From: Lepisosteus oculatus
Taxonomy: Eukaryota > Chordata > Actinopteri > Semionotiformes > Lepisosteidae
DNA length: 64,000 nucleotides
Assembly (NCBI RefSeq): GCF_040954835.1
Contig: NC_090698.1
Coordinates: 41,159,501 to 41,223,500 of the forward strand
Direction: 5' to 3'
Shown here in pieces: positions 230 to 57,607 of the stretch (the stretch's first letter is position 1; each line of letters opens with the position of its first letter). The translations under genes were made by a program, and so were the position numbers. Below the pieces are notes generated by a model. It was not told the DNA's origin and did not search any database. It worked only from the letters and a program-made list of their open reading frames with translations.

Positions 230-538
230 CAGTCAAGTCAGCATAGTGTTTGCTGATAAGCATTGCTGTGCTCTTGTAATTCACAAAGCAGGTGTAAGAA
301 TCCCATTCATTTGAGGCAACTTCAATGAGTGAAATAGCACTGTGCGTCCCATCTTCTTCCTTTGCAACATTATAGGTTATGTAGTCTGAAGATCCTTTGG
401 ATCCGCTGGAGAGCCAAGTCACCTCAACATCATTATGAAGGAAGTCACTAACCAGACACACCAGAATAGTTCTGCTTCTGCCATCTGGATTGTGAAACGG
501 TGGTGCTAGTGTAGCGAAGATGTTGGCATCCACTCCCA
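230..538 (-). CDS. ptcra: ptcra-like exon 2 (Ig C1-type domain)
   Basis: The acceptor AG is at 540-539 after a T-rich tract, and the donor GT is at 229-228 within GGTAAG. The 309-nt exon encodes the whole Ig fold, with Cys40 and Cys96 as the expected intradomain disulphide and Trp54 as the core Trp. Both ends are phase 1, as is usual for Ig-domain exons. Confidence 0.75.
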
Positions 539-1603
539 CTAGTGCAACACATTGGCAAAAAAATATGATTTTAGGGTTGTGTTAATTTGACTCTTGGATG
601 GCTGTATTCAGAGACCTATGATAGAGGTTCCCTATCAAATCTGTCATTTCGCTGAGATGGCATAGGGGATATGTGATCCTTCAACACTTCATAAAGCATT
701 GAACCACAATCACTGGCTTTTTGAGGAAAATGGAGAGTCAAGCAGGGTGTTATATTGCAGCATTAAAATGCGAGATCACTCTTTGTCCTCTGCCCATCCA
801 CTACCGGAACAGACTTTCAACCTCTACTATATCTTCCACTGTCTGATTTTCTCCTCCATGGAACTCTGAAAGACGGTCTATAAAGTCGGTGATCACAAGG
901 TCCAAAACACAGTGCAGTTATGGCTTAAACAACAAATTAAGCAAAGAATCTACAACAGTATCAAGAATCTTCTGAGTATCTGGTTCCTGTATATGGATTT
1001 TTATTTTCAGTCTTTTCAATGACTATAGTACTCAACACTATGATGCTGTAACGAAATGCACATCATGTTTACTGTTTTTTTAAATAGTTGTCTCATGTGT
1101 TGACAGAACTGCTATATGAAAAAAACTTTCCAATAAATTAAAGTGATTGCTTGTTTAATTTGTGAATTACTTTAGTTTTTTAAATACTCTGTGAGAAGAT
1201 GAAACATTGCAAGCTTACTACTGTAACTTCTATAGCATAATACTGTATATCAAGAGCGAACTACTACAAAAATAACAAAATGAAGCTTTCTCATTCACAA
1301 TTCCTCTTATATTTCACTTCAGACTGACTCTTTGTAAATGCTGTGCTTCACAGCTCTAAATGCCATATAAAACCAATACATGAAACATGCATAATCCATA
1401 TTAAAGCATCACACTTTCTCCATTTGCATATAATACATGACTCAAACGTGGTGAATGTGAAATGAGATTTAAGTTGTCATGTTTTTTAATTAATTAAGAT
1501 AAAACACGTCATGTTTTTGCTTTAAAAGCTATGAAATATGTTAGTACAAATAATATTGCTACTTACTTGCCATGAGCTCTATGATAAGGATGCTAAGCAG
1601 CAT
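230..1603 (-). CDS. ptcra: Pre-T-cell-receptor-alpha-like single Ig-domain protein, 5' part (partial gene)
   Basis: Two minus-strand exons join in frame. The signal exon (1603 down to 1567, 12 codons plus 1 nt) joins the Ig exon (538 down to 230, 309 nt, phase 1 at both ends). The product begins with a hydrophobic leader, MLLSILIIELMA, followed by one C1-type Ig domain: Cys40 in VCLVSDF, Trp54, and Cys96 in YTCFV. There is no V domain. The order LAPP, then a DG, then VCLV.D, then a Ser/Gly-rich S.G...D..TY stretch, then DGT, follows my recollection of mammalian PTCRA, whose product pairs with TCR beta on immature thymocytes. The Ig exon ends at LTG with a GT donor at 229-228. Connecting-peptide, membrane and tail exons would lie left of the window. 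Alternatives are another Ig C1-type gene such as a TCR or Ig constant-region relative. The Ig domain is certain; the PTCRA name is a moderately confident inference. Confidence 0.55.
1567..1603 (-). CDS. ptcra: ptcra-like exon 1 (signal peptide)
   Basis: Read on the minus strand, ATG at 1603 opens twelve mostly hydrophobic codons and then one extra base before the donor GTAAGT (1566-1561). The leftover A joins TG at the start of the Ig exon to give ATG (Met13) in frame. The leader is short for a signal peptide, and residues from the next exon may complete it. Confidence 0.55.
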
Positions 1604-9340: not shown

Positions 9341-10275
9341 GTAAATTTGCTAACACTTTCGTTACGAATTGAAATTACTGTTTTGCATTATGTTACTAAA
9401 AGCTTGGGTGTTTAATGCACAGTGTTAGTACTATGCATCTTATAAATCTAAAGCAAAGCACAGCTGGACCAACATATGAAAAAGTTCATAACCCATACAA
9501 CTTAAACTGTAGAAATGAATGGAACGTAGATGCACATTGCTAGCATTAGGAATATATACTATTTTATGAGTCCAGTAAAGCTTACAATTATGCGCGCTTT
9601 GTTCGTTAAAAATAAATCCATTGTAGTAAGGGACAAATTAATAAGAATAAGGTAATAAGGTAATGTGTTACTTTGCATATGGTATGTCCGACATTCTTTT
9701 TTAAAATACAGTTAACAGTAATCGTGTATTCACTTGATCCAGATTCTTCAATTTATTCATTGGCGTGTATCTATAGGAAGGTTAAAAAAGTTGCGATAAT
9801 AGTGGCGAGTATGGTGCACCTGTTACGTATCTTGATCATAATCCGCTTAAATACGCGCTAACGCCATTTCCATATACTGTATGCCATAGATGCTGAACTA
9901 ACTTTTTTTAATCCCCCTACTTCTTAATTATTAAGGACCTTGTAACTGTAATAGTTTTTTTTTAATTTCCTCAACATTGTTGAGTCTTTTTCTCCCTAAA
10001 AATTCAAGTTTTCTGCCCACCTACAGAAGAAATTCGTCATCCAGTCGTGGAACTTGTATTACATATCTACTGTATAATTTCATTTGCTGGCAAAGAATTT
10101 CTGCATGCATATTTAAAAAATAATTTATTTTCTTACAGGTTTAACTTCTACACGTTAAAGTATGTTGCTGCTCATTATACATTAACATTAACCCCCACAT
10201 GCCGATAGTCTCTAACCTTTACATCAACACCAATACTTCTGTTCATTGACAGTTGTTTTATAGCACATCACCACA

Positions 10276-10778
10276 ATGATAGTTTTATTCATTTTGGCAT
10301 TTTTATCACATTCTTCTACTGCCACAAGTAAGACGCACGAGGTTAACGGCTCTGTCAGCGAGCAGCCTCGTGTGGATATAAACGGTCTTCAGTTTCCATG
10401 GAACAGAATCCGGCTTCCAGACCACGTCATACCTGTCCACTACCACCTGCTCATCCATCCCAACCTGACATCCCTGACTTTCACTGGATCGGTGAAGATC
10501 GAGATTGATGTCAAACATAACATCACCTCGGTTGTCCTGCACAGTAAGAATCTCCAGATTACCGTGGCTACCATTCAGGATGAGTTTGGTCACTTTCTGT
10601 CACACAGGCCACTGCAGGTGCTAGAGAACCTGCCCCATGAACAGATTGCTGTCCTCTCGCCTAAACCTCTGCTCACTGGGGAAAAGTACTTTGTTCACAT
10701 TGAATACAAAGCCAATTTGTCGGATGGTTTTTATGGGTTCTACAGGAGTACTTACCAAACAAAAAATGGTGAAACAAG
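10276..10778 (+). CDS. erap2-like: ERAP copy A exon 1 (signal/anchor, N-terminal beta domain)
   Basis: Residues 1-167 plus 2 nt. ATG follows CACCACA. The hydrophobic segment FILAF lies near the start. [20 protein letters not shown] and the region after it are typical of the M1 N-terminal beta-sandwich. Donor AAG|GTACAG. Confidence 0.93.
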
Positions 10779-13700
10779 GTACAGTACGTGTTCTTCAATT
10801 ATACTTTTGATATTACTGTAAATGTAAAACTTAACCGGATGCCTAAATTGCTTTTTGTACTAAATGTAAAATAGTGTTACTTTTTTAAAACCTGGTACAG
10901 ATGTATTTTATTTCCTATTTAATACCTTTGGAGAAGAATACTATAATATTGATTATTTGTGTCTTTTTGGAGTTGATGTTTGTAGGATCTTATATTCTAA
11001 CTGTTCTAACTGTTCTGTTCTTTTTATGCAATGGGTAGTTGTCATTTTATTAATCAAAATTTTGTCATGTGCTAACATGAGTACTTTTTTCTGTCTCCGT
11101 TGTTTAGAACGCTGGCATCAACTCATTTCGAACCTACATCTGCAAGAATGGCTTTCCCCTGCTTTGATGAGCCACATTTTAAGGCCAACTACTCCATTAA
11201 AATAAGAAGGGATGATTCACACATCGCGCTGTCTAATATGCCTATTGTATGTACAGCCAATGAATAATGAATATACTAGATATTAAAAACTATTGCATCA
11301 AGCATAAAAAAATCTCTAAATGATTGTTATAATCATAATTGTACCACAGTCATATAATTTGAATTAAATAGGCTCTTTAAGAAGGAGAGAACTTGGAATA
11401 TTAAACATTTTTGCCATTAGACCCACTTGTTGCTTCTGAGATTTCTTTAGACTATGTTGAAATGTTTTACCATACTGAAAGCAGCATGTCTTTCAGTAGA
11501 ACATTTGACATGCTGTGGTTTTAGAAGCACTATCAAATAAAAATATGAATGAGACTTGTCTGTGTTCGAATGAAATCTTATTTAGTGCCCGGTACAGTAC
11601 AGTGAGCCTGAGAATGAATTAATGTTTATGTTTTGCTAGGAACGGACAGTTGTTTTGGAAGGTGGACTCTTTGAGGACCACTTTGAAGTGAGTGTCAGGA
11701 TGAGCACTTACCTGGTGGCCTTTGTTGTGTGTGACTTCAAGTCTGTGAGTGGAAGAACCTCCTCTGGAATTGAGGTAAACTTTTTATCAAATGCTTCTCC
11801 CTGTATTTAGGCTCTAAACTTTCAGTAATTATAGTTTTGCTGACAGATTCAGTTGAAAATGTAAATGCTTTTTGGTGCCACATACTTATATTTTTCAATA
11901 CAATGATCACAGTTCCAAACAATTGTAACTTCCTTGTGGTATTTCTATATTCCTCTATATTCTATATTTCCTCTAGTATTTCTATTTTCACAGAGAGTAA
12001 GTAAGTATAGATATTTAGACCTTTGTGAAAGGTCATTCCCTGGCTTGTGACTTCAGTTTTGTACGGTGTACTTGGAAGATGGTCATAGGATGCACAGACT
12101 CAGACAGGTCTGTAGGAATGAAGTATTTTGGAGTAATGACTGTTATTCTATGAACAGATAAGCTGTATATTCCTTAATTTGATCATTAAAGAAATACCCT
12201 CTTCCAATAGGATTTATGATGCTTTAGAACATCTCAGAATCTATGATGCATTTCTAAAGCAGGTCAATATTTTCTTTTCAGAATAACAGTATACTAATGT
12301 AATACAAATACAGTATTGTTGAGTGGGCTTCCCAGCTGTGTTGCTTGATGCCAGGCTGGCCAACCTTTAAAATGTTGATTTCCGAGATTGTGGCATTTGG
12401 GAAGAGCTAAAGCTCCTTCTTCCAAATAGTTCTTATTTTCATTTGTTAGAACATATGGTCCATGCCAAGGGTACCTATATTTCTGTTATCTCAGCACTTA
12501 TTTTTACTAATATGCCACTGAAGTAATACATACTAATAAATACTTGCAATTTTATAATTCTGTAGCCAGCAGCTATATCACCCTGCAACTCACAACTGGC
12601 AACCCACTGAAACTACGCAGGTGTGAGCCTGGTCAGTACCTGGATGGGTGACCTCCTGGGAAAACTAAGGTTGTTGCTGGAGGCAGTACAGATGTTAGTG
12701 GGACCAGTAGACGGCAGTCACCATGTGGTCTGTGTGGGTCCTAATGCCCCAGTATAGTGACAGGGACGCTATACTGTAAAAAGGTGCCGTCCTTCGAATG
12801 AGACGTAAAACTGAGGTCCTGACTCTCTGTTCATTACAAATCCCAGGGTGTTTCTCAAAAAGAGTAGGTGTGTAACTCTAGTGTCCCAGCCAAATTTCCC
12901 TTTGGCCTTTATCAATCATGGCCTCCTAGTAATTCCCTCTATGAATTGGTTTCATCACTCTCTGCTCATCCCCACTGATAGCTGGTGTGGTGAGCGTACT
13001 GGTGCACTATGGCTGCTGTTGCATTATCCAGGAGCTGCACATTGGTGGTGGTGGAGGGGAGTCCCCATTATCGATAAAGAGTTTTGAGTGGAGTGTCCAG
13101 AAATGAGCTAGAGCAGTGGTTCTCAAACGTTTTGGACCAAGTACCACCCCTAATCCAACCAAAGCATCCAAGTACCACCTACAAGTCATCTTCTCATAGG
13201 AACCCCAGAAATTCTCAATGACCAACATGAGCGCGCGTGCACACACACTCACACATACATATAATAAATATTATAATAATAAACTTTATTTGATATAGCG
13301 CCTTTAAAGGTGGCTTCTCAAAGTGTTTTACAGAAAAAAAAAACATTATCAACAACTAATAAAAAAGCACCATTTCAGTGAGAGGGGTGAGCATGTTTAG
13401 TTGAGCAAAGCAGATGTGAATTAATTTTTCGAGCCTTGATACAATTCATAACCGAGTCTAACAGATATATTAAATCGTCAGGCATTTTCTTGACGGCAAA
13501 GGTCTCGCGGTGGATGTTGTAATGCGTACATTAATTTCTGGAGCAACCTCTCTAATTCGTGCAACTACACTGTTATGTCGGCTTGTCATCGCTCTAGCAC
13601 CGTCTGTACAAACTCAGACGCATTTTATCCAGTCGAGGCCATTCTCTTCGATAAATTCATTCAGAAGCTGAAATATGTGCTCTCCTGTAGTTCCTGTTGG

Positions 13701-16700
13701 TAGCGGTTTACAGAGTAGAAAGTCTTCATGGGACATGCCCTCAAACTCATATCTAACAAACGAGCAAATTGGCCAAATCTACTACAGACTCATCTAATTG
13801 CAGTGAAAAACATCTGTTCATCTTAACGCGCTCTATCACTGTACTTTTGATATAATCCTTCATTTCAATAATTCTATGAATGACTGTGTCTTTCAAGGGG
13901 AGGGGGGCAGCAGGTCGAGCTGTTTAGCAGCTTTTTCTCTACACATAATACATGTCAGGTCTTTTGCCAACAGTAAATAAGGTTCTTCAAAAATAGTGTA
14001 GCTTACCTGCTTTAGCAATACGCAAGCTTGCATTTTTCTGCGTTTCCGTTTTTATTTCCGTATTTATTTAAAGTTTTTATTTCATGCGCATGGGAGCGAA
14101 ACACAGAGATGCTCGGTGTATTTTTCTCAAATTAGAACAGTTCTTAAATATTTTTCTGTTATCACGCTTTCCTGTGCTCACAAGATGACCTGCGTTCGTA
14201 GCACGCATTCCTGTGTTTACAACGTTGGCATTGTTCCAAAATCACGCACATTCTCCTTTCTCCCTATTTGCTGGAGATACAGTAGCTTTTTTTAAATACA
14301 ATTGGTCACTTGCATCCGTAGAACGTATTCCCATAGAGTGGTATAGAATTACAGAGTATCTCTTGTGTCCACCGAAGTATTAGCGCGCACTGTATCGTAG
14401 TACGTAGGCTGCGTATTCGACACGTATTAAAATACAAAATATGAAAACCCGTCCCGATTTTTCAGCGCACACGACACAGTTCCAGGGTCATTTGGCGTAC
14501 CACTTGGCGGCACTCCACATACCACTGCCGGTACGCGTACCACAGTTTGAGAACCACTGAGCTAGAGTATATAAGTGTAAGGATTTTTTTTCTTGTTCCT
14601 TCAGGTTTCCATTTTTGCTGTCCCAGACAAATGGGCCCAAACCCATTATGCCCTTGAAGCTGCTGTGAAACTCCTGGAGTTCTATGAACAGTATTTTAAC
14701 ATCTACTATCCACTGCCAAAGCAGGGTAAACATAACTGTGCGGGTTGAGGAAGGCTTTGATTTTCTTTGATTTAATTCAACATCTGTATGCTGCTGTGTT
14801 TTTAAGCTGTTCATCATAAATCATTGTTAGCTTTCACAAAACACTGTGAAATAGTGAAAATCATCAGTAATAACAAAAATAGTTCGAGTTCATGTGGACA
14901 GTTTCTGCCCATGTTGAATAAGATTTTCTATACATGGTTAGTACAATTGTTTCTTCTAGAGCATAGGGTGTTTTAAACATCAGTGATCTTTGTGTTATCA
15001 TTCCAGCTGAACTCTCATTTGCATATTGGAGTCAGCAGTGAGATCAATCAAGATTTATGTGGCCTTTGATTAAAGATTAGATTATTTTTGTAAACTGTAC
15101 TTGCTTCTCTGTCCTCTCCTGTTTTAGATTTGATTGCTATCCCTGACTTCCAGTCAGGAGCCATGGAGAACTGGGGTCTGACCACATACAGGGAAACTGC
15201 TTTGCTGTTTGATCCTGAGACCTCATCTGCCTCAGATAAGCTTTGGGTCACCATGGTGATAGGACATGAACTGGCTCATCAGGTAGGTGTTGCGTTTTAT
15301 TGATGTAGACCTACAGATAGAGGTGAGACTAAAAAAACCTTTTATCTCTAACTTGACATCAGATTTGTTTATTGCAGTCATTTTAGTACTTTTAAACCAG
15401 AGCCAGAGATTTGTTTTTAATTCAAATGATGACATTTAACATATGTTTGGCTTTAGGACCTTCTGTCTAAAGAGTTAAGATTTGTTTTTGTACTTGTTCT
15501 AATGGCAAAGTTAAAAACCTGCTCTAAGTTCTTCAGTAAGTACAGATATTTGGATACAAAAGTATTAAAAGGGGAACTGCAGTGCTATTTTTATATTTGG
15601 GGGGTTAGAAAGAATCTGCATTTCAACCCACAATGAAAGAAACATGTACACGGTAACTTGTAAAACCTCCAATTTACATCACATAATAGACAAAATTTCC
15701 CGGTATGTCCAGCACTATATTCTGCGATGATGGATGAGGCAATCAAACTTCCAATGAGTTGAAGTGGCCCTATTACATTGTAAACAAGCAGTCTTGTGAA
15801 TACATCTCCTTTAATCCAATAGAAATATTACTCTCGGGTTTGAGACGGTTTTGCCAATAAATACAGTACCTGCTAACTCTGCACGCTGTTCACATTGGAG
15901 CATTTCTGTAGTGAAACGTCTTCTGCACAACCTTACTTCTTTGCACTTATATTCACATAACATCAGTGAATTACAGTGAATAGTGAGCAGGAAGGGCTGC
16001 TTCACATTACAACTTTGTCCATGGCAAAACCAGCAGTTTGTGTCAACATGGCGACCACAAGGTACTTGTTCACTACTTTGTGTTCACTTGGGAAATTGTT
16101 TCTGCTACTGAGACAGATCTGAAAAATTTAGATTGTATTTCCCTTTTAAATCCCTTGTAGAGAACTCAGAAAGACCCCTAGAGGGAGCTAAAGGTCAAAA
16201 GAAAAATGTATCCCTTTAGTTGTTAGTTAATCTAATCTACTGTGCTACCATCCAAGAAAGCTACAGATTTAGTTTAGTCAGAGTGGTCATGTTTTTGCTG
16301 GTTTGTCCTTTTGTTACCAAAAAGTACAAAATTGAAATGGTGTTCTACTGTTACATTTGCAAACTAAGCACCAAGCCATACAGTTTTCTGGAAAAGATTA
16401 CATTGGGAAGATGGATAATTTTAATTCCAATAAACTAACCCCTAACATGGGAGGGCTGTTAAGAAAATCACAGCTCTTAGCTAAGTGAAAGTAAATGTTG
16501 TCAACAAATATAGTGTTTATAGCTGTATATGATTTTACTCCTCGGCTTAGAGAGAACTGCTTGTGATTTCACTTTTTTCTCTTCCCAGTGGTTTGGCAAC
16601 CTTGTAACAATGGAGTGGTGGAATGATATCTGGCTGAATGAGGGATTTGCCAGATACATGGAATTTGTTTCAGTAGATGCCACGTACCCTGAGCTGAAAG

Positions 16701-19700
16701 TGGTGCGTTGCATTTCTAGTAACCTGTAGATTTTGTTTAGGATAATGATGAAACAGAATGCATCATTATTCCATATTTCAAACATCACATCTATCCATTT
16801 TTTAAGCACTACTTCCCATTCAGGGTTGCTGGGGAGCCGGGTACACAATGGATGTGGGCACACACCCAGACATGCATACACTCACACAGGGCCAGCTCTC
16901 CCAGAAGTCAATTAACATACCAGTATGTCTTTGAACTATGGGAGGAAACCCACATGCAAACAGGGAGAATATGCAAACTCCATGCAGATATCATCCCAGG
17001 GCCCCAGCACTGCAAGGTCCTAATGCTAATCATTGGGCCACTGCGCTGTTTCAAATATCAAATAAAAGTTAGAATTAATTACAATAAATAACTTTGTTGC
17101 AATTCAGTGCGTGGTGAAGTGAATTGTTTGTCGTGTTTCAAAAATTATGTGAAATATTGAAATATTTTAATTCTCATTGGTAGTAGTTAAAATTGTTTTA
17201 GAAGACCTTTTGAAAATGGATTTTTAGAACTCCAGGATCCTCACTGAATGTATTATTATATCTATTTCTCTGCAGGAGGATTACTTATTGGACACTTGCT
17301 TTGCAGCAATTGGCAGGGATTCCCTGAACTCCTCACGGCCCATATCCAGCGCTGCTGAGAACCCCACTCAGATAAAAGAGATGTTTGACACTGTCTCCTA
17401 TGACAAGGTACCATTTGTTTTATTATAATAATCATAATCATAATCATAATAATAATTGCTTACACTTATATAGCGCTTTTCTGGACACTCCACTCAAAGC
17501 GCTTAACACGTAACCAATGTGCAGCATCCACCTGGAAGATGTGACAGCTGCCATAGTGCACCAGAACACTCACCACACATCAGCTATCAGTGGGGAGGAG
17601 AGCAGAGTAATGAAGCCAATTCATTGATTTTTTTTATTCAGGAAAAAAAACCTTTATTCAGGTTTTGCTTTATTCAGGAAAGGAATGAAGTGTTAACTTT
17701 CTGAAAGCTTCCATCAGATATTTCTTCATTAAATTTTTAAACATTATACTAATGTGTGTATTTACCAGTTCTCCAGACTTAAGATCATTAGAAGGCTAGG
17801 ATTGAATGAAGTCCATTCAGCCTGTCTTCTTAGTCGGTTTAGCTTGCAAATAGTCTAGTGATCTCAGAAGCCATCTATTCTTTTTAAAGGGGTTGTCTTC
17901 TATCGTTGTAAAAATGACAGTTTCCTTTTTGTTGTAACATGTAGGCAAGAGAATGTGTTGTATTTTGAGATGTTATTTGTTATAGGTTTGTTGGTGGTGT
18001 GTAAGAAGGGCTTTTTTAACTCTGTCTCTTCTGGATACAGTTGTTCAGGCTTGTTGTAAATACGTCTATTCTGTATTTAGATAGACGCAAACATCTATTT
18101 GCAAATTTACTGTTATACTCTGAAACCAATGTTTGCTTCACATCATGTCATGGTTAGCATGGTATTTTACGTTCTCTTTTATAAATGTTGTAACACTGAT
18201 CCTGTGGTATTCCAAAAGTATGTTCTCTCCAGTCTACAGCAACAGCTTTTGTTTGTACTGTTTTCTGATCTTTAACCAATTGTTTATCCATGTAAGCACA
18301 GAAACTTGAATTCCTTAGCTATCCTTAGTGAAGGATTAGTCTTTCAGAAAGGTTTTGATAAATTACTGTTTGCAAGTCAAAATACATTGTCTTGTGCCTT
18401 ATCTTTTGCATGTGGTGCTTGTTTAAAGAAATCTAGTAAGTAGTTTAGGAACAATTTGCATTTTCTAAATATGTGCTGACTATCTCCTATTTAATGGTTT
18501 TCATTTAAATGCTCTGCTAATTTGGTTAAATTTTAATTAAAAGATATAATTGAGGTAAGGCTGATTTGGAAATCACTGTCTCTGTTTTATTCCCTTTAAG
18601 AAACATTAGGTACACCCCTCCTTTAAGAGCCAATTCAAACTTAATTTTTCATTTCTTCAAACAAAAAAGTATACAATAACTGCTTTTAATTTTTTTGTTT
18701 GTTTGAAACTTCAGGGAGCTTGTATCCTTCACATGTTGAGGAACTTTCTGACAGATGACGTTTTCCAGAGTGGAATTGTCCGTTATCTCAGGAAATTCAG
18801 CTACAAAAATGCCAAGAATGAAGATCTATGGAACAGTATTGCAAATGTATCGTTTCCTCTTTTGAGTGTTTGTACTAGAAAAACAATAGATAATCAATAA
18901 CAAGGCATTCACATGACTACAGCAGGTTTAAAAAAATATATTTACACATAATATCAGATAGCAAATAGCAGGGCAATATAAACTCCTTTAAAGAATGAAA
19001 TGTTATGATAAAATATGAAAAAAGTGGGTGTCATTCCTTATATACTGTATAATACATAAAGTAAACAAACTGTGATAGTGAAACAAAATAGTTTGTATAA
19101 GGTATCTAAAAAGGGACAATAAACTGTAAATTTTAGTCAGTATTTTATTTGAGATATTGTGGTTTGATTTATTAAATTTACTACATCAATAAAAATGAAT
19201 ATAGAAAACTAATGTCATTTTCAGTCTCATAGAGTACATTAAATCTTGCTTGTCATTTCAGACTTGCAGTGAGGAAGACTTTACTTCAGGAGAGTTTTGC
19301 TACAGCAGCAGTCAAGCTACAAAGAATGCAGTAAGTAAAATCTTAAATGGAAGGCATATGCTTTGTGAATTATTAATTAAAAAAATTGGGGATTGAAATT
19401 CTTAAATTATGAAGAACTGGAATATTGTATGCTGTTGATTGCTGCATGGTATTATTGGTCTGGAAATGTATGCAATTGGTTTCTGTGTGTTTTCCAAAGT
19501 ACCGATATGCTGGGGAGCACCTTGACTTGAAGGAAATGATGAACACATGGACTTTGCAGAAGGGAATTCCCCTGATTATTGTGAATCGCATAGGAAATGT
19601 GGTCACACTCAGACAGGAGAGGTTCTTAAAGACTGTTCTACCCTCTGATCCCTCATGGAATTCTGAGCAGCAGGGGTAAGAACAAACCTTAATCTTACAA

Positions 19701-22700
19701 GACAAGGTCGTCTGTACAGAATGTAGCGCTATTGCTGTGTTGAATTTCCCCTGTGCAGAGCAGCTAAAAACTGGTCAGTGTCTTTTGAATGCGTTTATCA
19801 CATTTTAACTTCTGAATACAGTTCAACATAGTGGGACATTATCTGAATGAGGTTAATACTTTTGCAAGGCTCTGTATATTTATAAGAGTTAGAGGAGAGG
19901 TGATGGAATACAAACAGGGTGGAAAGAGGGGCTTCAGAATACACTGAATATTAAATGCTAATTTCTAAAAGCAATTTAGCAAACTTGTTTTTGTGTTTTA
20001 AAAACCATTCCAGTTACTTGTGGCATGTTCCATTGACATACATGACAAGCAACTCCAGAAAAATTGGAAGATATTTGCTGGAAACAAAATCAGGTAATAG
20101 CACTTTTATATATACAGTAAAACATTAGACCATTTTAAAGGCTTACTTTTACAATACTCTAGTTGTCACATGCTTTTAGTTGTTTGCAGTGAAAGTCGTA
20201 AAATTGACAAAATTGCAATAAAGGTACCAATTTTGCTGGAAAAATGTATAACAGTTGCCATCAGCAATACTTTCCTTGTACCAATTTTATGTTATAGACC
20301 TATCCAATTTGTAATGGCCAAATTGATTTAAGCTTTGACATTATAGCAAGAGTTGCATACTGCAATGGGAAAATGAGGACTTGCAAACAAGCTCCGTTGA
20401 CTCACCCATCTGAAATAGCTTTTCCTCCTGTCATAGGCAATAAGCTCTGCAGTGCCCAACAGGAGAGTTAGTATTCCCTGGAGGAGCAGACATCTTTGGC
20501 TGTAGCGTCACTGCAACCCTGCAGATTGCAGAACGAACCCCAAACATTTTTAGTTTGCAACTACATATCACTTACTTTGTTTCCGTAGATACGGTTGAAA
20601 TGGAGGAAGAGGTGAGCTGGGTAAAGTTTAACACAGATATGAATGGATATTACATTGTGCACTATGAAGGGGATGGATGGGACTCCCTGATAAACCTGCT
20701 TAATAAGAACCACACTGCTGTGAGCTATAAGGACAGAGCTAACCTTATCCACAATGCATTTCAGCTTGTCAGGTAAGATATATACAGTGTAATGTACACT
20801 CACTGGTCCGAATCTGCCATAGTAAACCTCATCAGCTATAACAGTTGTGAGCAGCAGGAACAGCTTGAACGAGACCTGAGCACAGTTGGTGTTCCAACAT
20901 GATTTTCCATTTTGAATCCCAATTTGAATCTTGCAGAATAACCTGCAAGCGTATTAGTTATAGGTGGCACTGAACAGTTTTTTCCCCAAAAGCTATAGAT
21001 TGAAGGTGATTTCTGGAGGTCTGACTCCTGCTTCACAAGTTAGCCGTGCATTAGTTGCCACTGAGAGTCTATTCATTTGATGGAAGTTCCCTACTGTCAT
21101 TGATTTACTTATTGGTTTGATGAGACTGTTCTACTTTTTACAGGGTTTTCTCCTATTTTTCTTAATTATCTCTGTGTAAATGTCTTAATTGATCAAGAGA
21201 CATCCTGAAAAACATTTTCAGCCTAAAAAGGCAGTGCCCACCAATGACAAGAAAATGAACACCTATATGATGTAGAAAAAAATCTGAAAGTACTTTAAAA
21301 AAATGTAAATCAGGTAGTAGTGGTTAAATAACTACATATGTGCAGTTTAAAAGTAGTTACATCTTTGGGAAATGAAAAGCAAAAAGTGAGTCTTGTTTAA
21401 ATACTTCCCCACAGACTTGGTTTTTCTTTAGGTTTACAGTTTTTAAGACATTGTGTAAACATTTGCAGTTTTATCTCAAGATGTATTATTTTAACGTGAT
21501 GATGAATGAGAACATGCTTAAAACAATTCTGTACTGAATACTTTAGTATATTTTGTGTTTAACAAATTATTATCCAGTGCAGGGAGGCTGTCACTGAATC
21601 AAGCCCTTGATCTTACTCGCTATCTGAGCCATGAAACTCACAATGTCCCGCTGCTGCAAGGTCTTGGTTATTTAGAGGTCTTCTTCAGAATGATTGAAAG
21701 GAGGAACATCCCTGATGTCACTCAAAACCTTAAGGTATGCTTTAACATAATGTGCTAGCACTATTGCATCTTTGCTTAATTGCTATTACCTGCCTCTGTT
21801 TTGTTTTGAGACAGGTATAATGAAATGAGTCCATTATTGGTCTCATGGGTAAATGCATTTCAAGCTATTTTCATTTTCCTAAGGATGAGCTATGTCTCTT
21901 CATCCCTGCTAATATAATGTTTTAATAAAATCTGAATACTATTTACTTGCCTTAAAATTTGAAGAATTCTAGCATTTGATGCTTTAAAGACCAAAGCATT
22001 ACAATATGTGCTTTGGTAACCCTCGTGTCACTGTTTTATTTCTTTATTTGACTTTGAATTCAATCTGGCAATTTTGCCCCCTTGCAGTTTTTATTGCAAC
22101 ATCTGTGGATCTGTGAATGTTGTTATAGCTAAGGTTCAGTTTCCTTGTACAACACAAAATGCAGAAGGATTTTGTTCCTCTCTACTTTTATAGTAAAAAG
22201 TATACAATGTATACTACATTTTTTCAATAAATGTCTTTAAGCTTTACAGAACTTTACTGTATAAACAAGTAGTTCACGTTAAAATGCACTGCATCTAAAA
22301 CAACTAAAATTTTCCTTAAAAGGTTTCCTAATCTACTAATCAAAGATATTTAGATGCTTATATGAACAGTTCTTCTCTTGGTTTTCACCAAGGTTTTGCT
22401 GGTATTTAGAATCACATCTGAAAAAAACTTAAGAAAATAAATGGTGAAAGTCAGACAATTAGATATATCTAGATAGAAATATCAGCCACAAAGATACTCA
22501 GATCAGTTTAATATTTTTGTATTTGCTGGATCTTTTAGACCTTGTTCTGTTTTCATTAGCTTATCAGAGAACGTATTGGGAACATTTCAATCAATGAAAC
22601 AAACAGCAGTGTGGACCAATGTTTACTTGATAAATAGATCAAAGTTCACTTTCTTGCTCAAACAGCACATTACTACTTTAATACATGATTTGAAAAAGAA

Positions 22701-25700
22701 ATAATAACAGAAATTAGGCAACTTTCATTCACTTGCGTGATTTGTGGCTTTGGGTTGTGTAACAAAGCAGCTAGATGTAAACTGAAGGCCTGAACATTTT
22801 GTTTGGGTAGTGTTGGAATGAATCCTGTTCCTGCATTTCAATTAAAGTGACTGTCACTCTTGTACAGAATTATATCTTGCAGTATTTTAACCATGTGATC
22901 GACAAGCAAACATGGAGTGATGAAGGATCGGTGTCAGACAGGAGGCTTCGTTCAGCTGTCCTCGAACTGGCATGTGACCTTGGATATCCTCCATGTGTAA
23001 AAAAGGCAAATCACCTCTTCAGTGAATGGGTTGGATCTAACAGCACAATCAGGTTCTTGAACATCAACCCTCTTTTTAACTATGGAAGTTATTTTCTTAT
23101 AGCTACTTTGTATACCACTTCTTTCTAAAAAGTCTAATACCATGTGCACTGTAAGTTATAGAACGAATGAGATGTATTGTAGTCCTCTTAGTATCAGAAG
23201 TCTTCCTGGTGTTGTTGCACAAAATAGTAAATGCATATCGGCCACTTCTGAGAGTCTGTCCTCTTTTTAAATAAAAAGCAAAAAGCATTATTTTTTGGTT
23301 TTTATTGCTAAAGCTTTACAGTTTCTGCACCCTCTTTAGTTCCAATGGTTTGTGTTGAGTTTAGTGTATTTGAAGTTCAAGTAGGTATCTGCGTCAGCAT
23401 GCGTAGGCTACAAAAGAAAAGAAAAGAGAACCAATGTTTCAGCTGTGGAGCCTTCTTCAGGTGTCTCGCCTGTGTCACACCTGAAGAAGGCTCCAAAGCT
23501 GAAATGTTGTCTGTTTTCTTTTCGGCATAGAATAAACCTTTACTTGTTCCTTTAGTGTATTTTTGTCTTGACTGTTCTCAAAAAGCACACCATGCTACTA
23601 TTAAAAACTGAAATTTCATCAAAATCTTAGACATAAAATAGACTGAGTTTCACTACTTCCATTTATGCTAGCTTTTTAATGTTTTTAATGGTGCTCAGTA
23701 GCCATTTACTATTCCATATCTATTTATACTGGTAATTTAAAGAGGTTATATGAGATGATTAGTTACAGGAGGTGTTTTTTTGTTTTTACAGTTTACCCAC
23801 TGATGTGACTGAAACGGTTTATTCTGTTGGAGCTCAGAGACCAGAAGGATGGACCTACCTCCTAGACAAGTATCAAGTATCCTTATCAGGGACTGAGAAA
23901 GACAAAATTTTGGGTGCATTAGCAAGCAGTATGGATTCTGAGAAGCTATCAAGGTATATAAGAATTTCACAATATCTTATTAAATATTCTTTAGTTTTAT
24001 TCTTTGTTTAGTTTTGTTTAGTAAGCATAAATCAAGCAAAATGTATCTGCCTACCAATTAAAGTGAAATATGTGGTACAAGATTAATGAGAAGGAAAAAA
24101 AAATTACCTCCCATATATCCGAAGTGTATTCCGAGGCAAAATTAAGCCCTGCAACCTTGTTGAAATACTGTACAAAAAGTGATGGATGCTTTAAAGTAAT
24201 GCTTCCATATTGAGCTGCTCAGTTCCTAAATTGACCTACTCGTGTCACAGTTCCTTTTAATGCTGTTATTTTGGACTTTCCCCAATGTCAGTTCAGGAGG
24301 CTTTTTTTCATAACCATATTAACTATAAGAGCTGTTATTTTGACTCAATTAACCTTTGGTTTGGGAAAATATAGGTGATTACAGTATAGATTGCGTACAC
24401 ACTAACAGTGAATCTGGTTTCTTTGTAGATTGCTTGATCTGGGATTGGAAGGTGTTGTGATAAAGACACAAGACCTCTCCTCACTTATCTACAGAGTGAG
24501 CAGAAATCCTACCGGACACTTCATAGCTTGGAATTTTGTTAAGAAGCACTGGAATCAGTTGGTGGAAAAGTATGTATGATTATTACTTTTTTTATAATTC
24601 TTCACGAATCTTACTATGTCTGAGCCTAAATAAAGCTCATGAACATCTTTTAGTTAAGCACTTGGGGTGAGTTTGAAATCATGGAACATCCAAATTGTTT
24701 TAGATGTCTGTCTTACACCTTTTCCCCTGATACCATAACCACGGTACTTTCAGTTTTGAGGCAGTAACATAACTATGAGCAGGGCAGTGAGAGTTTGTGG
24801 GAATAGTGAATACTGTAAGTGGACCTCAGTCTTCCAACAATGTTCATAATAAAACTGATGTCATTTTCCTGTAAGACTTCTTCCTTATTACACCGATGCC
24901 AGAAAGGAGGAACATTTTATGATAAAGACCAATAGGACACTGGAAATTATATACTCTGTGCACCTGCCTTGTTTCCTGATTATAGGGACTGAGATGGGCA
25001 AGTTGTTAAGATTCAAAACTGCATCCTTTCTGCTTTTTTAGCATTCTGTTTTTTTAAACTTCATTTTAAAGTGTTTTGCAAAAGACACGTTGACTATCCT
25101 GCAGTTCCCAAAGGTCACATTTGACCCCTGAAAATATAATCACTTCCTGCTTGGTCAACAGGGACAGTGCTAGAAAATAGTCAACAAGAGATGACTTGAT
25201 GCCATAGTGCATTAGTTCTCAAACTTTTTGGACCAAGTACCACCCCTAATCCAACCAAAGCATCCAAGTACCACCTACAGGTCATCATCTCATAGGAACC
25301 CCAGAAATTCTCAATGACAAACATGAGCGTGTGTGCACTCACACTCACACATACATATAATAAATATTATAATAATAACACTTTAAAGGTGGCTTTGCAA
25401 AGTGTTTTACAGAAAAAAACAGTAACAACAACAAATAAAAATAATAAAAAAGCACCATTTCAGTGAGAGGGGTGAGCCTGTTTAGTCGAGCAAAGCAGAT
25501 GTGAATTAATTTTTCGAGCCTTGATACAATTCACAACAGATTTTAAATCGTCAGGCATTTTCTTGACCGCAAAAATCTCACAGTGGATTTTGCAATGCGT
25601 CCATTCTTTCTGCAGCAACCTCTCTAATTTGTGCAACTACACCGCTGTGTCAGCTTGTCATCGCTCTAGCACCGTCTATACAAACTCCGACACATTTTAT

Positions 25701-30781: not shown

Positions 30782-31809
30782 GTACTGCACAGGAGAATAT
30801 TTCATTTACATTTTGATTGTTACCCGGTATTATATTTTTTAAGTCAAAGAAAACACTTAAAAACATTACAGGATATACTGTACCGACGATACAAGTTTTG
30901 CAGGTGCTATTTTAGTAAATTCAAACTCGCACCGTACAGTTAAAAGACTTCCGGATTGTCTGTTGAAATACTGACGTTCCAGCATGAAGTATTTGTCATG
31001 TTTTATATGATATATTCATTATATTAGATATAGAATTACATTTTTGTTAGATCATCTGTCATGTAATAAAGCACATTTGTATACGAAACGTTTACTTCTA
31101 TATACAGTATGTGTACCAACACAATGGTGTTTGGTAGTTTTGTTCTGTGATAGTATTGTAAAAATGCTTTTAGGTTTTTTGACTATTATGTCTGTTGTAA
31201 GGCAAAATAATACGCAAAATAGTATTTAGGACTTAGCAACATATTTTTTATGCACAGTTGCCTTTAACAGCCCGAGCAATTGTGTGTGGGGTTAAGAATT
31301 GTATACAGTATTCCAGCGGAACCCTAAGTTCCTAAGTAAATCATTTTTGTAAGTAAGTTTAAATAGCTGAGTAACTGTAAGTAGGGCAACTCAGACCAAA
31401 AATAAGTATCACATTTAGTACCTTGCAAGAGTAGGTTTAGGGACCTAGTAATTCAAAAGTCCACTTGTCCTCACTCAGACCTACACTATTTACAGGTCAA
31501 GTTCATAGTCAAAGCTCAGAGTGCTTTGGCCTCTGTATTCCAGGCTGTTGCAGTATAATCAGAAGGAAAGCATGTTACATATGATTTATAATGCATCTAG
31601 CCTGGGAAATTCAAAATGATGTGAATTTGGTACTATAAATTAAACACTGTTGCTAAATGCAAATTATTTATTTCACATATTGATCTTTTTTTTTGCAGAA
31701 ACAACATTGGATATGTACATACTTTTAAAGTTTCCATTTTTATGAACCATAGAATGTTCTTAAAAATTACATTTTAATTTCAGAGGATAGTTTTTGAACA
31801 CCAACAACA

Positions 31810-32297
31810 ATGGAAATGATGATGTTGAAACTAGCAGCGTGGTTTCAGCTGATGTTGGTTTGTAAAGGTAGTTCAAATGAAACTATGGCTACCAATGGTC
31901 AGCTGTTTCCCTGGAACAAAATGAGACTCCCTAGGAGCATAGTGCCAAACCACTATGACCTTCTGATTCATCCCAATCTGACCACTTTGAACTTTACTGG
32001 ATCTGTGACAATTGAAGTTGATGTCAAACATAGCACCAGTTATGTCATCCTGCACAGTAAAGATCTTGGAATAACAAAAACAACCATCATACCTGAGGAG
32101 GACTGGGGGTCTGGTGGTCTGGGCCAGACTGTAAGAATACTAGAATATCCGCCACATGAGCAGATTGCTTTGCTGGCCCCCGAGCCTCTGAATGAGCAAA
32201 GGAAATATCGACTGTACATTGAATTCCAAGCCAATCTTGCAGACGGATATGATGGCCTCTATAAAAGTACCTACCAGACCAAAGACGGTGAAAAAAG
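31810..32297 (+). CDS. erap2: ERAP copy B exon 1 (signal/anchor, N-terminal domain)
   Basis: Residues 1-162 plus 2 nt. ATG follows CCAACAACA. It contains [20 protein letters not shown]. Donor AAG|GTAAAT. It is 15 nt shorter than exon 1 of copy A. Confidence 0.93.
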
Positions 32298-35200
32298 GTA
32301 AATTGCTTGTCTACTGTATCAGGGCTGGCCTACCCTGGTCCAGAGGAGCCACAGTCCAGCAGATTTAACAGACTACCCTTAAAATAGTCAAATTTCACAA
32401 TTGAAATTGCTAGTTTAATTTGATATGCTAACTTTAAGGTAGTTTAAATAAATGAAGGGCTGTAAAGCTTGAGAGCTACTTACATCTGCTTAAGTGTTCA
32501 AAACAAAAATGTTTCAAGCCCTTAAATGATCTGTAAGTGACCCATAAAACAACTGCAGGAGTGGGGATCTCTAGGACCAAGGCTGGTCTTCCCTGCTCTA
32601 TACACATGCTCTATACACATTTCATGAGAAAACATCTAAATATATATATATATAAAGTAAGCATCATCATATATATTTTGACTGCATTTTGGATAAAGAG
32701 TAGCATAAATTCTTGAGGAGAAGGTTTTTAGAATAGTTATGGGTTACTATTTTATCTTGGATTTGAAGATATTTAATTTGCTTATAATGTTATTGTTTAA
32801 ATGTGATTAAAATGCTAAAAAGAGTGTAGTAAAAGTACAGAAAAAGACCAACTCTAAAAATAAAATCAGGCATATTAAAATCCAAAATGCTAAACATGTT
32901 TTAGCTAAGACAAGACAAGAAATTTGGATCGACATACCCGCCATTTCAAAATGGATAGGAAACATTATGTTTGATATGCAAAAATTACAATTAATACAAG
33001 AGTTTTCAGGTTATGAATACCACTTCTTGATAAGAAATAAGTGTTAAGTAATTAATACGAAGATTCATAATCAGCATTAAAAAGCTCATAAAAATAATAA
33101 AATGAATGCTGTGCTTGATTCGTGATAAATATTCTAGAGGATTCTAATATTTTTTCAGTCACACTAAACAAATTTACATTGGTGCTTGAAATGTTAGCCT
33201 GAATAATACAGTATAGGCTGGATTGCTTGGCAAGCATCTTATTAACATGCTGTGATAATTTCCTTGTTTTGTTTATTCCCAGGATACTGGCGGCCACAGA
33301 TTTCGAGCCTACTGCTGCACGGATGGCTTTTCCCTGCTTTGATGAGCCCTTTTTCAAAGCCACATTCTCCATCAAAATAAGAAGAGAAAAGCAACACATC
33401 GCCCTGTCCAACATGCCCAAGGTAAGAGCTGTTGGCTTGAAGGAGTAGTTTTCATAACATGAAATCTCCTGGCTTTACCTTTTATTTGCTGTTTTCTGTT
33501 TGTTTCATTGGCTTTACATTTTAAGCAAAAGAGTAAGTTTTTGAAGAATTTGAGGAGAGGGCAATAAGATGAACACAGTATTTCATTTCTAATGCAGTGA
33601 GTTACACTAATGCCACACTATACCACATCCTCACATCTAAGCAGCCATGAATTTCAACATGGGCCCATGAAGATGGGCCTCAAATAGAATAAATGTAGTC
33701 CAGCAGGAGTACTATTACTGCCTTTTAGAACCTACATGAAGTTGGGCCTGGTCAGCTTTGAACTGGAAGACGTCTAATGAACCCAAGGCTGCTGTATTAA
33801 GAGGTGTAGGTTACCCAGTTAGTGTGGTTCCTCTGGTCCACAATTTCTAAACTAGTACCACTGGCAACTAAATACATTGTAACTATAGGAAGTGTCAGCT
33901 TTTGGATGAGACTTTAAGACCCCTTTACTGACCGTTTTGTCCCTGTTTGTAAAAGAAGGATGTTAAGTAATTTCTCACTTATCCACCTGATCTGTGTAGT
34001 GAGGATACTGGTGCATAAAGACTGAAACATTGGCAGAAAATGGGAAAAGCTAAAAAGTGTTAGCTATTCAGCATTCTTCAGGCCTGAGGATGAAAGAGGA
34101 AAGTAGCATGGATATATCCATCCATCCATTTTCTAACCACTTCATTCATTTCAGTGTTGCGAGGGAGCCAGGACCTAGCCTGGCAAGTAATAGTAATGGC
34201 ATGCAAAGTGTAACCCAGATCCCTTTGAGACAGCAATACTAACCACTGTGCCACTGTGCTGCCCCCATAAATGAAACTATTTTTAAAAATTAAATAGAAA
34301 AATTAAATGAATTGACTGTTTTTTTCAGCACTCACTATTGTTGTTGTTGTTGTTGGTGTCCTCAGGTGCGGACTGTGGAGCTTGCAGGTGGTTTGCTCGA
34401 AGACCACTTTGACAAGAGTGTCAGAATGAGCACTTACCTGGTAGCCTATGTAGTTTGTGACTTCATGTCAGTCAGTGCCACCACATCATCAGGGATAAAG
34501 GTATGTACAGTATATCCATATTATTGAAAGCAATACAATTATTGTAGCTTGTAGTTACAACAATAATAATATTCCTCTCTGCCATTTTTATACTTTTTTT
34601 CTTGCATTTAGTACAGTTTGTCCTTTCCATGGTTTCCCAGAGTCCTGCCTAAATATTTGTCTGTTCTTCTGTTTAAATGGACAGTAAAGTGGAAAGCCTT
34701 CTGATTTTAGTTTTGAATATTAACAGGTTTCAGTATATGCTGTTCCTGAGAAGTGGAATCAAACTCACTATGCCCTTGAAGCATCAGTAAAATTGCTGGA
34801 GTTCTATGAACATTATTTTAACATCAGTTATCCTTTGCCTAAGCAAGGTAAGGACATAAAATGAAATTGAAAGAGACACTATAAATGATCTCAATTAAAT
34901 ACATAGGAGAATGGAACAAGTAAAGGTTTATTCCATGCTGAAAAGAGAAGAAAAAAAAATACAATGTTTCTTCCCACTTGAAGAAGGCTCCACAGCCAAA
35001 ACGTTGTGTTTCTTTTCTTATTTTTTCAGCTTGGAATAAACCTTTATTTTTGAACTTTTGAACTGTACATAGGAGAGTTTTTAATTCCTTATATTCCATG
35101 ACTTGAAGAAGAGGTGATATTTGGTAACAGCATGCTTCTTGGACTGTTGTTATGAAATAACATGTTTCAGTTAAAAAGTGTTTTACATTTAGAAAATCAT

Positions 35201-38200
35201 GAAAAAAATGTAAGAAAATAGCTTTTCATTGCATAAAACATCCTGCCATATTTCAGGATTGGAGGTGTAATGTATGAATGTACAGTAGGGGTTCTTTAGA
35301 CTTGGTGATACTTAATTTATAATATTTTTACTATTTTAATAAATCTGGGTCCTCTACCAGATTGACCAATCAGAAAACAGCATTCTATCCTGCTGTTGTC
35401 TAACAAGACCATGATATTAACTTTCGGTATTTTATAAAACATCATTGAAGTGTTACTAAAATTCTCTTTGTTTCAGGTTAAAGAGAACTCTATTAACTTG
35501 TGCCAGGGCAGGATTTTCTTGGATAAAACGAATACAGTATTGAGAATATCTTTCTGTAATAGCCAACACAAAAGGAACAGTATTTTTTGGTATGAGGAGT
35601 TTATTTTTTGTTTTTAAACTTGATGATATATGAGTGTGTTTTTGTCTTTCCCAGACCTTATTGCTATACCAGATTTCCAGTCAGGGGCTATGGAAAACTG
35701 GGGCCTAATAACGTACAGAGAGACTGCGCTCCTATATGATCCACAGACATCATCTGCTTTAGATAAATTGTGGATAACGAAAGTCATAGGTCATGAATTG
35801 GCACATCAGGTAGTGTACGAAATCATTACTTAATGACTTTAATGCGGTTTAGTACCTTAACTGCAGGTTCTTTATAAACAATCACTTTATTACTGAGTTA
35901 GAACAGAGCTCCTCCTGGCTTTACCAGAAAAGACGCTTTTCCCTTCTAAGTAGAGGTCATACTGTAAGTAATGGGATTTGTAGTTAGTATCAGATCTTTC
36001 TCCTACTACCTTCTATTCCATTCTTATTTTCTGGTATAAACATTTTTGTTTTATAAACCAAGCCAACAAACCTGTACAGTTACAGTAGTACTATACCTGG
36101 TATTCAGACCTGGGGCCATATTCACAAAGCTCTAAATGTGCACTTAATTCACTTATTGAACAAACTCTAATGGGAGTTACATAATAAACTAGGGTTGAAC
36201 TTTAAGACAGCCCTAGATGAGTATGAACATGGATTTTCTACAGTTGAGGTATAAATGTTAGTTTATACTGTATATTTAAAGTATGTCAATGATAATTGGT
36301 AAGAGTTTTTATTAGTAATAGCAAAATTAGAGTAGGAATATTTTAGAATAAATCCCATGGCAATTTGTAAATAAATAGTGCTAAATAGTGATCATGTGTT
36401 GGTTACAATTGATGAATCATTTTTGTTCTCACAGATGACTTTATGAAAGTAAAGGTCAAAATTATATGATTAACATTAAAGTACCCTTATGTTGTTTTTA
36501 TATATTAAAAGCAATAGTTTACACGGAAAGCGCATGGATGTCACACACCCAAAAGCACTTGGGTGTTATAGTTATTCAAGAAAGTGTCACAAATACTGCC
36601 CATTTTACCTGACAAAATCAAGCTGAATCTGAAATAATTTGCTGTTATCTCCTGGTGTTTATTGTTCAGTGGTTTGGTAATCTGGTGACAATGGAATGGT
36701 GGAATGACATCTGGCTGAATGAAGGATTTGCCAGATACATGGAGAGAGTTTCTGTGAACAACACCTACCCAGAGATTCAGATTGTAAGTACCTGCACAGG
36801 TTATTCCCCTGAATACGTACAGTAACTATTGCTATTCAGCTGGAGTGTGCACCATAGACACCACAATCTAGGAGGTCTGCAGTATCGAGAAAACAGTTCC
36901 TTCACAAATGTGTCAATCATTTAGATTAGTTTGGATTTTATTCTAGTATTATAATTTGTGTATTTTTACATATATTTTTGCATATAATCAAATTAGTAGT
37001 GCATCACTGTTTTTTTTGTTCATAGCAGGTGCCTTATGAAACCTTTTAGCAACTTTTAGATATAAAAAAAATAATGAAATTCTTACCTATTTTCCAGGAG
37101 GACTACTTTCTGAATGTGTGTTTTGGAGCCATGTCAAGAGATTCTCTAAATTCTTCTCATCCGATCTCCAACCCAGCAGAAACGCCTGTGCAGATTATGG
37201 AAATGTTCAACACCGTCTCCTATGATAAGGTCGGCTTTCTTACACATTCATATTTAATCTGCTTTTCATGACAGTTGGTCTGGTAGTTTGGATGCACTAT
37301 TCCAAAGACCTTCTTGTCTGTTTGTACATACTGTAATAAGCAAGTAACCAATTGACTGCTGGAGGTTTCATGCACATCATGGGAATACCATCTTGGTTGT
37401 CAAGATTAGTTAAACTGTTGGGACATTTTCAACTTTAAGAAAAAAGTAATACATTTAAGCAGCAGATGAACATCTTAAAAAAAACCATAAATGTTTTTTT
37501 TTCTTTAGGGAGCATGTATTCTGAATATGTTGAAAGATTTCCTAACGGAAGAAGTCTTCCATAGTGGGATTATTCGCTACTTACACAGGTATAGCTACAA
37601 GAATGCAAAGAGTGATGACTTTTGGAACACCATGGCGAATGTAAGACCCCATGAATCATATGTTGTGTGCTTCCTTCATGCTAATGTTCGTCTTTTTTTC
37701 AGCATTTTAACATCAGGTATCCCACATTTCAAGGCTAACAAAGAGGATGTAAATATAGTTAAAAGCAGTTAACTTTTTAAAGAATCAGTTAGTTAACATT
37801 TTTAACCACTTTATCCAATACAGTATCACAGGGGAGCCAGAGCCTATCCTGGTGAGCAATGGCCACAAGGCAGGATACATCTTGTTTGGGACAGCAGTCC
37901 ATCACAGGGCACACACCAATACAGACACCCACACACCTGCATTAGGGCCAGTTTTCCCAGAAACAAACTAACCTACCAGCATGTCTTTGGACTGTAGGAA
38001 GAAAGCGGAGCAGTTAGCGAAAACCAGTGATAACACGAGTAGAACATACTGTACAAACTCTGCACAGATATGGTCCCAGTTCCAAAATCAAACCCAGGGC
38101 CTCAGCACTGTGAGACAACAATGTTAACTATTATGCAGCCATTCCACTTGAGACTATTAATGTTCATTTAAAAGTACCTTAGTACCTTATTAAGTCAAAA

Positions 38201-57295: not shown

Positions 57296-57607
57296 TCATC
57301 TCTTGGTTAGCCAATTGTTGCTGCTGCTCTGGACTTTCTCAACTTTGTTTCTTACTTCATTGAGATGCTTCTGCAGTGTGTGTTTGCTCAACCTGCCTGG
57401 ACTGCAGCTGCTGATCTGTCTCTCAAAGGCAGCAGCCTTGATCTCCAGGGTCTTCCTCTGTTGTTCATTGGACTGCAGGGTCTTACACTTCTTACTCAGC
57501 TCCCTGGCCACTTTGGTGAACTCGGGATGCAGTTTGTCCAGCTCAGTGTTTTGCTTGCTCCTGTTCTGGCTGGTGGCCTGGCATGGGTTATACTGCATTA
57601 GGGCCAT
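57296..57607 (-). other. Unassigned open frame, 103 codons, Lys/Gln/Ser-rich
   Basis: Minus-strand frame from ATG at 57607 to TGA at 57296. The predicted product is hydrophilic and likely helical (heptad-like KLHPEF, KKCKTLQS, LNEVRNKVEKV). The region is less AT-rich than its surroundings and is also open on the plus strand. No family recognised. It could be a retrocopy of a coiled-coil gene, a small gene or chance. Confidence 0.3.

Follow-up and report, generated by a model that had tools for sequence, protein, structure and literature searches.

Whether a ray-finned fish carries a gene for the pre-TCR alpha chain, PTCRA, is the question raised by a locus of Lepisosteus oculatus. At the left end of the window, which is the whole stretch of 64 kb analysed here (C3:41159501-41223500), an open frame of 128 aa with an Ig domain lies on the minus strand, and a preliminary description had proposed a pre-TCR-alpha-like gene at this place. 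It had also held that PTCRA is described in mammals, birds and reptiles, and the published surveys, in their available text, place the gene only there: PTCRA is recorded in amniotes and was found neither in amphibians nor in teleosts (PMC9614664, PMC12529555, PMC6747487, PMC8559430, PMC10464911, PMC11759298), and three of these papers state that fish or teleosts have no known PTCRA (PMC8559430, PMC10464911, PMC11759298). From this absence it has been argued that lineage decisions in lower vertebrates may follow other rules (PMC6747487). The terms PTCRA and pre-TCR are absent from the main text of the bowfin genome paper (PMC8423624), and no published PTCRA of a ray-finned fish was found among open-licence papers, in part of the matches listed.

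Exons of the predicted gene

The features of the locus are collected in Table 1. On the minus strand, a single exon with a C1-type Ig domain (exon 2) was confirmed, and the residue order that had been listed for it (LAPP, DG, VCLV.D, W.S.G, D..TY and DGT) is present in the translation. The exon is bounded by the acceptor CTAG/TGGGAG and the donor ACTG/GTAAG, and the phase 1 claimed for it was found at both ends. It matched the Pfam C1-set with 53 bits (E 4.6e-14); the presence of an Ig domain is far beyond chance.

Table 1. Features of the locus; positions are those of the window, and negative positions lie to its left.
Feature	Position	Strand	Remarks
Exon 1, signal peptide	6683-6626	minus	58 nt, candidate by scan; MLKVLLFLTLCGLIMEPVT + G (first base of split codon); phase 1; donor ACAG/GTAAGC, score 7.4
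Signal exon of the preliminary description	1603-1567	minus	37 nt; MLLSILIIELMA; donor score 5.3
Exon 2, single C1-type Ig domain	538-230	minus	309 nt, phase 1/1; Pfam matches
Exon 3, connecting peptide	-265..-315 (C3:41159185-41159235, L002:9685-9735)	minus	51 nt, phase 1/1; ENDLDNTCYADLWNVTQ; read left of the window
Exon 4, transmembrane	-847..-952 (C3:41158548-41158653)	minus	GIQNHSESVFILALRILLWKSIIFNFMMTVILIME; read left of the window
Probable 3' UTR exon	-1165 (from C3:41158335 downward)	minus	
RGM-family gene	left of the window		RGM_N and RGM_C exons
ERAP1-like neighbour	10264..24011	plus	M1 and ERAP1_C domains in four frames; best PDB match ERAP1; outer limits are reading-frame limits; last frame assigned by reading alone
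ERAP2-like neighbour	31798..45259	plus	M1 domains in three frames; best PDB match ERAP2; outer limits are reading-frame limits; last frame (45035-45259) without Pfam match
LNPEP-like first exon	right of the ERAP2-like gene		M1_N match; LNPEP by reading

The signal exon probably lies elsewhere. Candidates were sought by an ATG, a length of 31-99 nt, a donor score of at least 5 and a hydrophobic core, with thresholds fixed beforehand and with assumed splice weights. Two phase-1 candidates were obtained in the 10 kb upstream of exon 2. When the scan was modified slightly and extended to both strands and all phases of the 64 kb, it gave three candidates, the short exon of the preliminary description among them; only the one listed as exon 1 is 58 nt long. 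The short exon named in the preliminary description exists as a reading frame, but the upstream candidate fits better in length and has the stronger donor. The available text of PMC10958617 places the end of human PTCRA exon 1 at c.58, in the codon of Gly20 (c.58G>C p.Gly20Arg, c.58+5G>A), and the candidate therefore agrees with the human exon in coding length and phase. If joined directly to the Ig exon across a predicted intron of 6,087 nt, it would make a fitting exon 1, as judged from its letters. The shorter frame is probably a decoy, or might serve as an alternative first exon; the interval 230..1603 first assigned to the gene thus holds the Ig exon and a probable decoy. A LINE reverse-transcriptase fragment is located at 4041-4969 (minus strand), inside the inferred intron 1, with RVT_1 in 4041-4619 and no Pfam match in the frame 4592-4969 (minus strand).

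The 1.2 kb to the left of the window (L002) completes the predicted gene. There the connecting-peptide (CP) exon with an unpaired Cys and the transmembrane (TM) exon with a basic residue, both anticipated in the preliminary description, were observed: the peptide encoded by exon 3 has one Cys, at CP residue 8, and the membrane segment in exon 4, FILALRILLWKSIIFNFMMT, has Arg and Lys 5 residues apart. In human PTCRA the membrane Arg and Lys are likewise 5 apart. The cytoplasmic tail that had also been expected was not found. After exon 4, either splicing to the exon at -1165 gives TGA, or readthrough gives W and then TAA; the stop comes directly after the membrane segment, leaving almost no cytoplasmic tail and no long proline-rich one. 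According to the available text of PMC9614664, the long proline-rich tail of PTCRA is a eutherian feature and the tail is shorter in non-eutherian mammals, so that a long tail is not defining for PTCRA.

In a six-sequence alignment, the CP Cys is aligned with that of human EASTARTC, and ALRILLWKSIIFNFMMT with VLRLLLFKLLLFDLLLT of human PTCRA and GFRILLLKVAGFNLLMT of TRAC. When CP+TM was used as query, TRDC scored 13.5, TRAC 11.3 and human PTCRA 10.5 bits; with the human PTCRA tail region as query, the fish CP+TM scored 10.3 bits against 6.1 for TRAC. Against PDB at E<=10, CP+TM matched only three TRDC chains, with a best E of 0.55. As read from these letters, CP+TM alone does not pick between the PTCRA and the TRAC/TRDC families.

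Specificity of the match to PTCRA

Exon 2 scored 44 bits (E 2.2e-11) on the Pfam PTCRA model (PF15028), whose curated cut-off is 23.1 bits, and human PTCRA itself scored 233.9 bits. The profile search proposed in the preliminary description was thus borne out as far as the PTCRA model is concerned; the general C1-set scored higher than the PTCRA model on the same exon, which is expected for any C1 domain.

The same profile library was run on 27 control Ig/TCR constant domains in three sets of nine. None of them passed the PF15028 cut-off, the best score being 22.4 bits, and weak scores are hidden by the HMMER filters. No PTCRA match was reported for the first set (human TCR, Ig and B2M domains). 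For the second set, further domains which included shark UrIg and a horse light chain picked as the top non-PTCRA PDB match of human PTCRA, four matches were reported, with the horse chain at 22.4 bits as the best. For the third set, C1 exons of the same genome, one was reported at 16.9 bits (L030, a light-chain constant by reading).

A search of the whole genome with PF15028 (1,200,105,466 bases on 813 contigs; 9 candidates scored) gave two matches at E<=1: exon 2 of the window scored 43.4 bits, and an exon at C32:3622162 (L013) scored 20.7 bits. The window exon was the only match over the cut-off, so that the PTCRA-specific model passes its cut-off here alone in the genome; the preliminary description had named best profile hits to Ig or TCR constant domains as the outcome that would speak against its claim. 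The exon at C32:3622162 scored below the cut-off and reads as an Ig light-chain constant with a Cys-stop end. The TRBC-like and Ig light-chain-like exons of this genome in the third control set, named as such by reading, also stayed below the cut-off. The C1-set had at least 149 matches in the whole genome, the window exon included (190 candidates, 150 scored).

A side observation concerns contig C18, on which 28 of these at least 149 matches, many with identical scores, are spread from 3.26 to 17.76 Mb, that is, over about 14.5 Mb. One of them (L026) looks like an Ig light-chain constant. The pattern may reflect light-chain genes that are dispersed to an unusual degree, or it may stem from the assembly.

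Pairwise comparisons were also made. The human PTCRA ectodomain aligned to exon 2 by BLASTP with 27 of 88 residues identical (E 2e-12). With human PTCRA as query, 31 PDB sequences were found at E<=0.1; apart from PTCRA itself, the 30 others scored 20.1 bits or less, and exon 2 of the window reached 31.9-32.6 bits. When 21 further C1 exons from this genome (L013 among them) were compared, the best score was 19.0 with human PTCRA and 13.1 with mouse PTCRA. In the reverse direction, exon 2 as query scored about equally on the C3 domain of shark UrIg (34.3 bits), PTCRA (32-33 bits) and IGLC (31-32 bits). The TRAC model DUF1968 (PF09291) gave no match on exon 2 and 131.6 bits on the human TRAC control.

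The residues that bear the function were then compared in a 26-row alignment. Two positions of human PTCRA, Asp51 and Tyr76, touch TCR-beta, and variants of them allow only very low surface TCR-beta/CD3, as given in the available text of PMC10958617. Both positions are kept in the fish exon; among the 23 other rows, the Tyr76 residue occurs in none and the Asp51 residue in 7. The Asp of Val-Asp-Gly occurs in 1 of the 23, and an Asp-Gly-Arg/Lys pair is common to the fish exon and PTCRA. This pair presumably has a role in mouse pTalpha. From the second Cys to the end of the exon there are 21 residues in both fish exon 2 and human PTCRA; the human junction assumed here agrees with the primer for exon 2 that PMC10958617 gives.

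Kinship and competing readings

The fish gene resembles human PTCRA in its single C1 Ig domain, its short CP and TM segment and its predicted leader, with no V domain. Also the same are the CP Cys at residue 8, the TM Arg and Lys, the phase-1 junctions, Asp51 and Tyr76, and the candidate exon 1 has the 58 nt of the human one. The two differ in that identity across exons 1-2 is about 28% (34/121), the fish chain has almost no cytoplasmic tail, and its Ig cysteines are 4 residues fewer apart. With TRAC/TRDC the gene has in common the exon order C - CP - TM - UTR, the TM motif LRILL.K...FN..MT and a very short tail, but it has its own predicted leader exon, no V/J was found, and its C1-type Ig domain is unmatched by DUF1968. 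Ig light-chain constants (IGLC; in this genome L013 and L030, by reading) are similar in C1 sequence and, together with the horse chain, were the runners-up on the PTCRA model, but exon 2 lacks their Cys-stop end and is followed by membrane exons, with no V/J near. In shark UrIg (PDB 9dmx) the C3 domain was the top pairwise match of exon 2, but it belongs to a V-C1-C2-C3 chain and scored only 12.5 on the PTCRA model. The surrogate light chain IGLL1/VpreB shares the idea of a germline-encoded stand-in, but its chains are those of the pre-B receptor and, to our knowledge, have no membrane exon. They are reported in eutherians only, according to the available text of PMC9614664.

In a first tree of single Ig domains, the window exon and PTCRA were grouped with 79/86 support and in 76% of 200 bootstrap trees. 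In a second tree, to which a fish light-chain exon was added and from which the very long human TRAC row was dropped, the PTCRA group was lost and the placement of the window exon was unsupported; under constraint, grouping with PTCRA (p-AU 0.478) and with light chains (p-AU 0.362) were both retained. Since they are built on one domain of about 100 residues, the single-domain trees settle nothing.

At the DNA level, the case is made by the exon anatomy, the PTCRA profile, the TCR-beta-contact positions, the CP Cys, the TM Arg/Lys, the minimal tail and the fact that no V/J was found. We consider it quite likely that this locus of a ray-finned fish, with four coding exons, specifies a member of the PTCRA family, a TCR-alpha-like chain that is encoded in the germline and does not rearrange. 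The pre-TCR-alpha-like gene of the preliminary description is thus upheld by its profile, its CP and TM exons and the search for V/J, and amended in its signal exon and its locus. From its predicted product, the gene probably works as a pre-TCR chain. It is a likely ortholog of amniote PTCRA, short of proof because the locus differs.

The alternative that survives best, although we regard it as unlikely, is that a pTalpha-like chain had an origin of its own: a constant gene of TCR alpha/delta or of a light chain, lacking V, would have been duplicated into the ERAP-RGM locus, acquired a leader and come to serve in a pre-TCR-like role without being an ortholog. The membrane segment, marginally closer to TRDC/TRAC than to PTCRA, and the trees, which leave kinship unsettled, would allow this, but the only match over the cut-off of a PTCRA-specific profile in the genome is this exon, which DUF1968 does not match and which was the best match of PTCRA outside its own family in all comparisons made. 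It is also true that the locus is not common to amniote PTCRA, and that a common origin requires losses, since reports find no PTCRA in amphibians and teleosts; against this, the length of the predicted exon 1, the phases, the distance from the second Cys to the junction, the CP Cys at residue 8 and Asp51/Tyr76 are all as in PTCRA.

That the gene is a decaying or unexpressed relic of a PTCRA-like gene is very improbable. The donor of exon 3 is weak (score 3.1), as a relic might have it, but the four coding exons are open and of consistent phase, the junctions are GT/AG throughout, no frameshift or internal stop is present, and both Ig cysteines and the Trp of exon 2 are kept.

The preliminary description had further stated that a V or J segment upstream or more Ig exons downstream would argue against its reading. 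A phmmer search that used five V domains as queries and took in 2,146 frames found no V domain in the 64-kb window (best E 0.8), and no V or J motif, no RSS with up to two mismatches and no second C exon were found there. A motif search of 164 kb (the window and its flanks) gave no V or J motif; a single RSS-like site, which has two mismatches, is at -38774, 39 kb downstream of the gene. Among the C1-set matches listed, one other is on contig C3, at C3:9471412. With no Cys-stop end and no V-J found upstream, exon 2 differs from a light-chain constant; with neither a DUF1968 match nor V/J upstream, it also differs from TRAC, for which the human chain served as control. It is hardly credible, then, that exon 2 is the constant exon of an ordinary rearranging light chain or TCR with V and J outside the stretches read: its C1 domain has the C1-set as top Pfam match and light-chain constants among its nearest relatives, but these searches found a lone two-mismatch RSS-like site, RGM and ERAP genes stand on either side, and exon 2 continues to CP and membrane exons where the light-chain-like L013 ends with Cys and stop.

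Locus and age of the pre-TCR

The order of the genes is RGM - PTCRA-like gene - ERAP1 - ERAP2 - LNPEP, the PTCRA-like gene being head to head with the ERAP1-like, ERAP2-like and LNPEP-like genes and having the RGM-family gene on its opposite side. We take this order to resemble human 5q15. In the available text of PMC9614664 and PMC12529555, amniote PTCRA adjoins CNPY3. The fish gene has RGM on its left and the ERAP1/ERAP2/LNPEP-like genes on its right and differs from the CNPY3 block, so that conserved synteny gives no support for orthology; CNPY3 synteny is a sign of orthology and not of family membership. In this part of contig C3, whose flanking genes span -29036..-16196 and 10264..68446, the putative T-cell checkpoint gene adjoins class I peptide-trimming genes.

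If the PTCRA-family gene works as we propose, early thymocytes would make the chain before TCR-alpha rearrangement, and its Ig domain would pack on the constant domain of the freshly rearranged TCR-beta. The CP Cys would form an interchain disulphide with TCR-beta, and the membrane Arg and Lys would recruit CD3 dimers. The complex would signal without ligand and, given its short tail, through CD3 alone. In this beta selection, cells with a productive beta chain would then divide, cease to rearrange beta and make the alpha locus accessible.

We lean, with some reserve, towards a scenario in which the pre-TCR, and beta selection by a dedicated surrogate chain, were present in the common ancestor of ray-finned fish and tetrapods. 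The chain would have been a tail-less TCR-alpha-like form, encoded next to class I peptide-trimming genes in the ERAP/LNPEP region. Teleosts and amphibians would later have lost the gene, and in amniotes it would have shifted to the CNPY3 locus. A fish PTCRA gene would reverse the order of events, for loss and not gain would explain teleosts and amphibians. The pre-TCR checkpoint may be far older than thought, and the age of beta selection would become testable in a living fish. A pre-TCR chain that naturally lacks a cytoplasmic tail would also bear on the purpose of the mammalian tail.

Several other elements were noted around the locus. A 5S rRNA-like element lies in an intron of a neighbour at 12565-12682 (plus strand; 48.6 bits), perhaps a pseudogene or a 5S-derived SINE. 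Two closely similar stretches at 25650-25988 and 59090-59545 (minus strand), the latter without Pfam match, presumably encode a hAT/ZBED-like protein. The 104-aa open frame at 57299-57610 (minus strand) has a weak Sec3 coiled-coil match below the cut-off, and a 350-aa open frame (L011) at 98394-99443 (plus strand) presumably represents a Tc1-type transposase.

Elsewhere in the genome, 17 of 18 globin matches are clustered on both strands of C19:16.207-16.258 Mb, where two beta-type exons (L045 and L046; IVYPWTQRYF..FGNL) and two alpha-type exons (L047 and L044) were read. A shared cluster of alpha and beta genes, with exons of this sequence, is typical of ray-finned fishes and very probably marks the genome as that of one. 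The alpha-type exon L044 needs a gap against the human sequence and has the length of the 142-144-aa chains 1la6, 1v4u and 1hbh, which we take to be fish globins and which were not the top-scoring chains.
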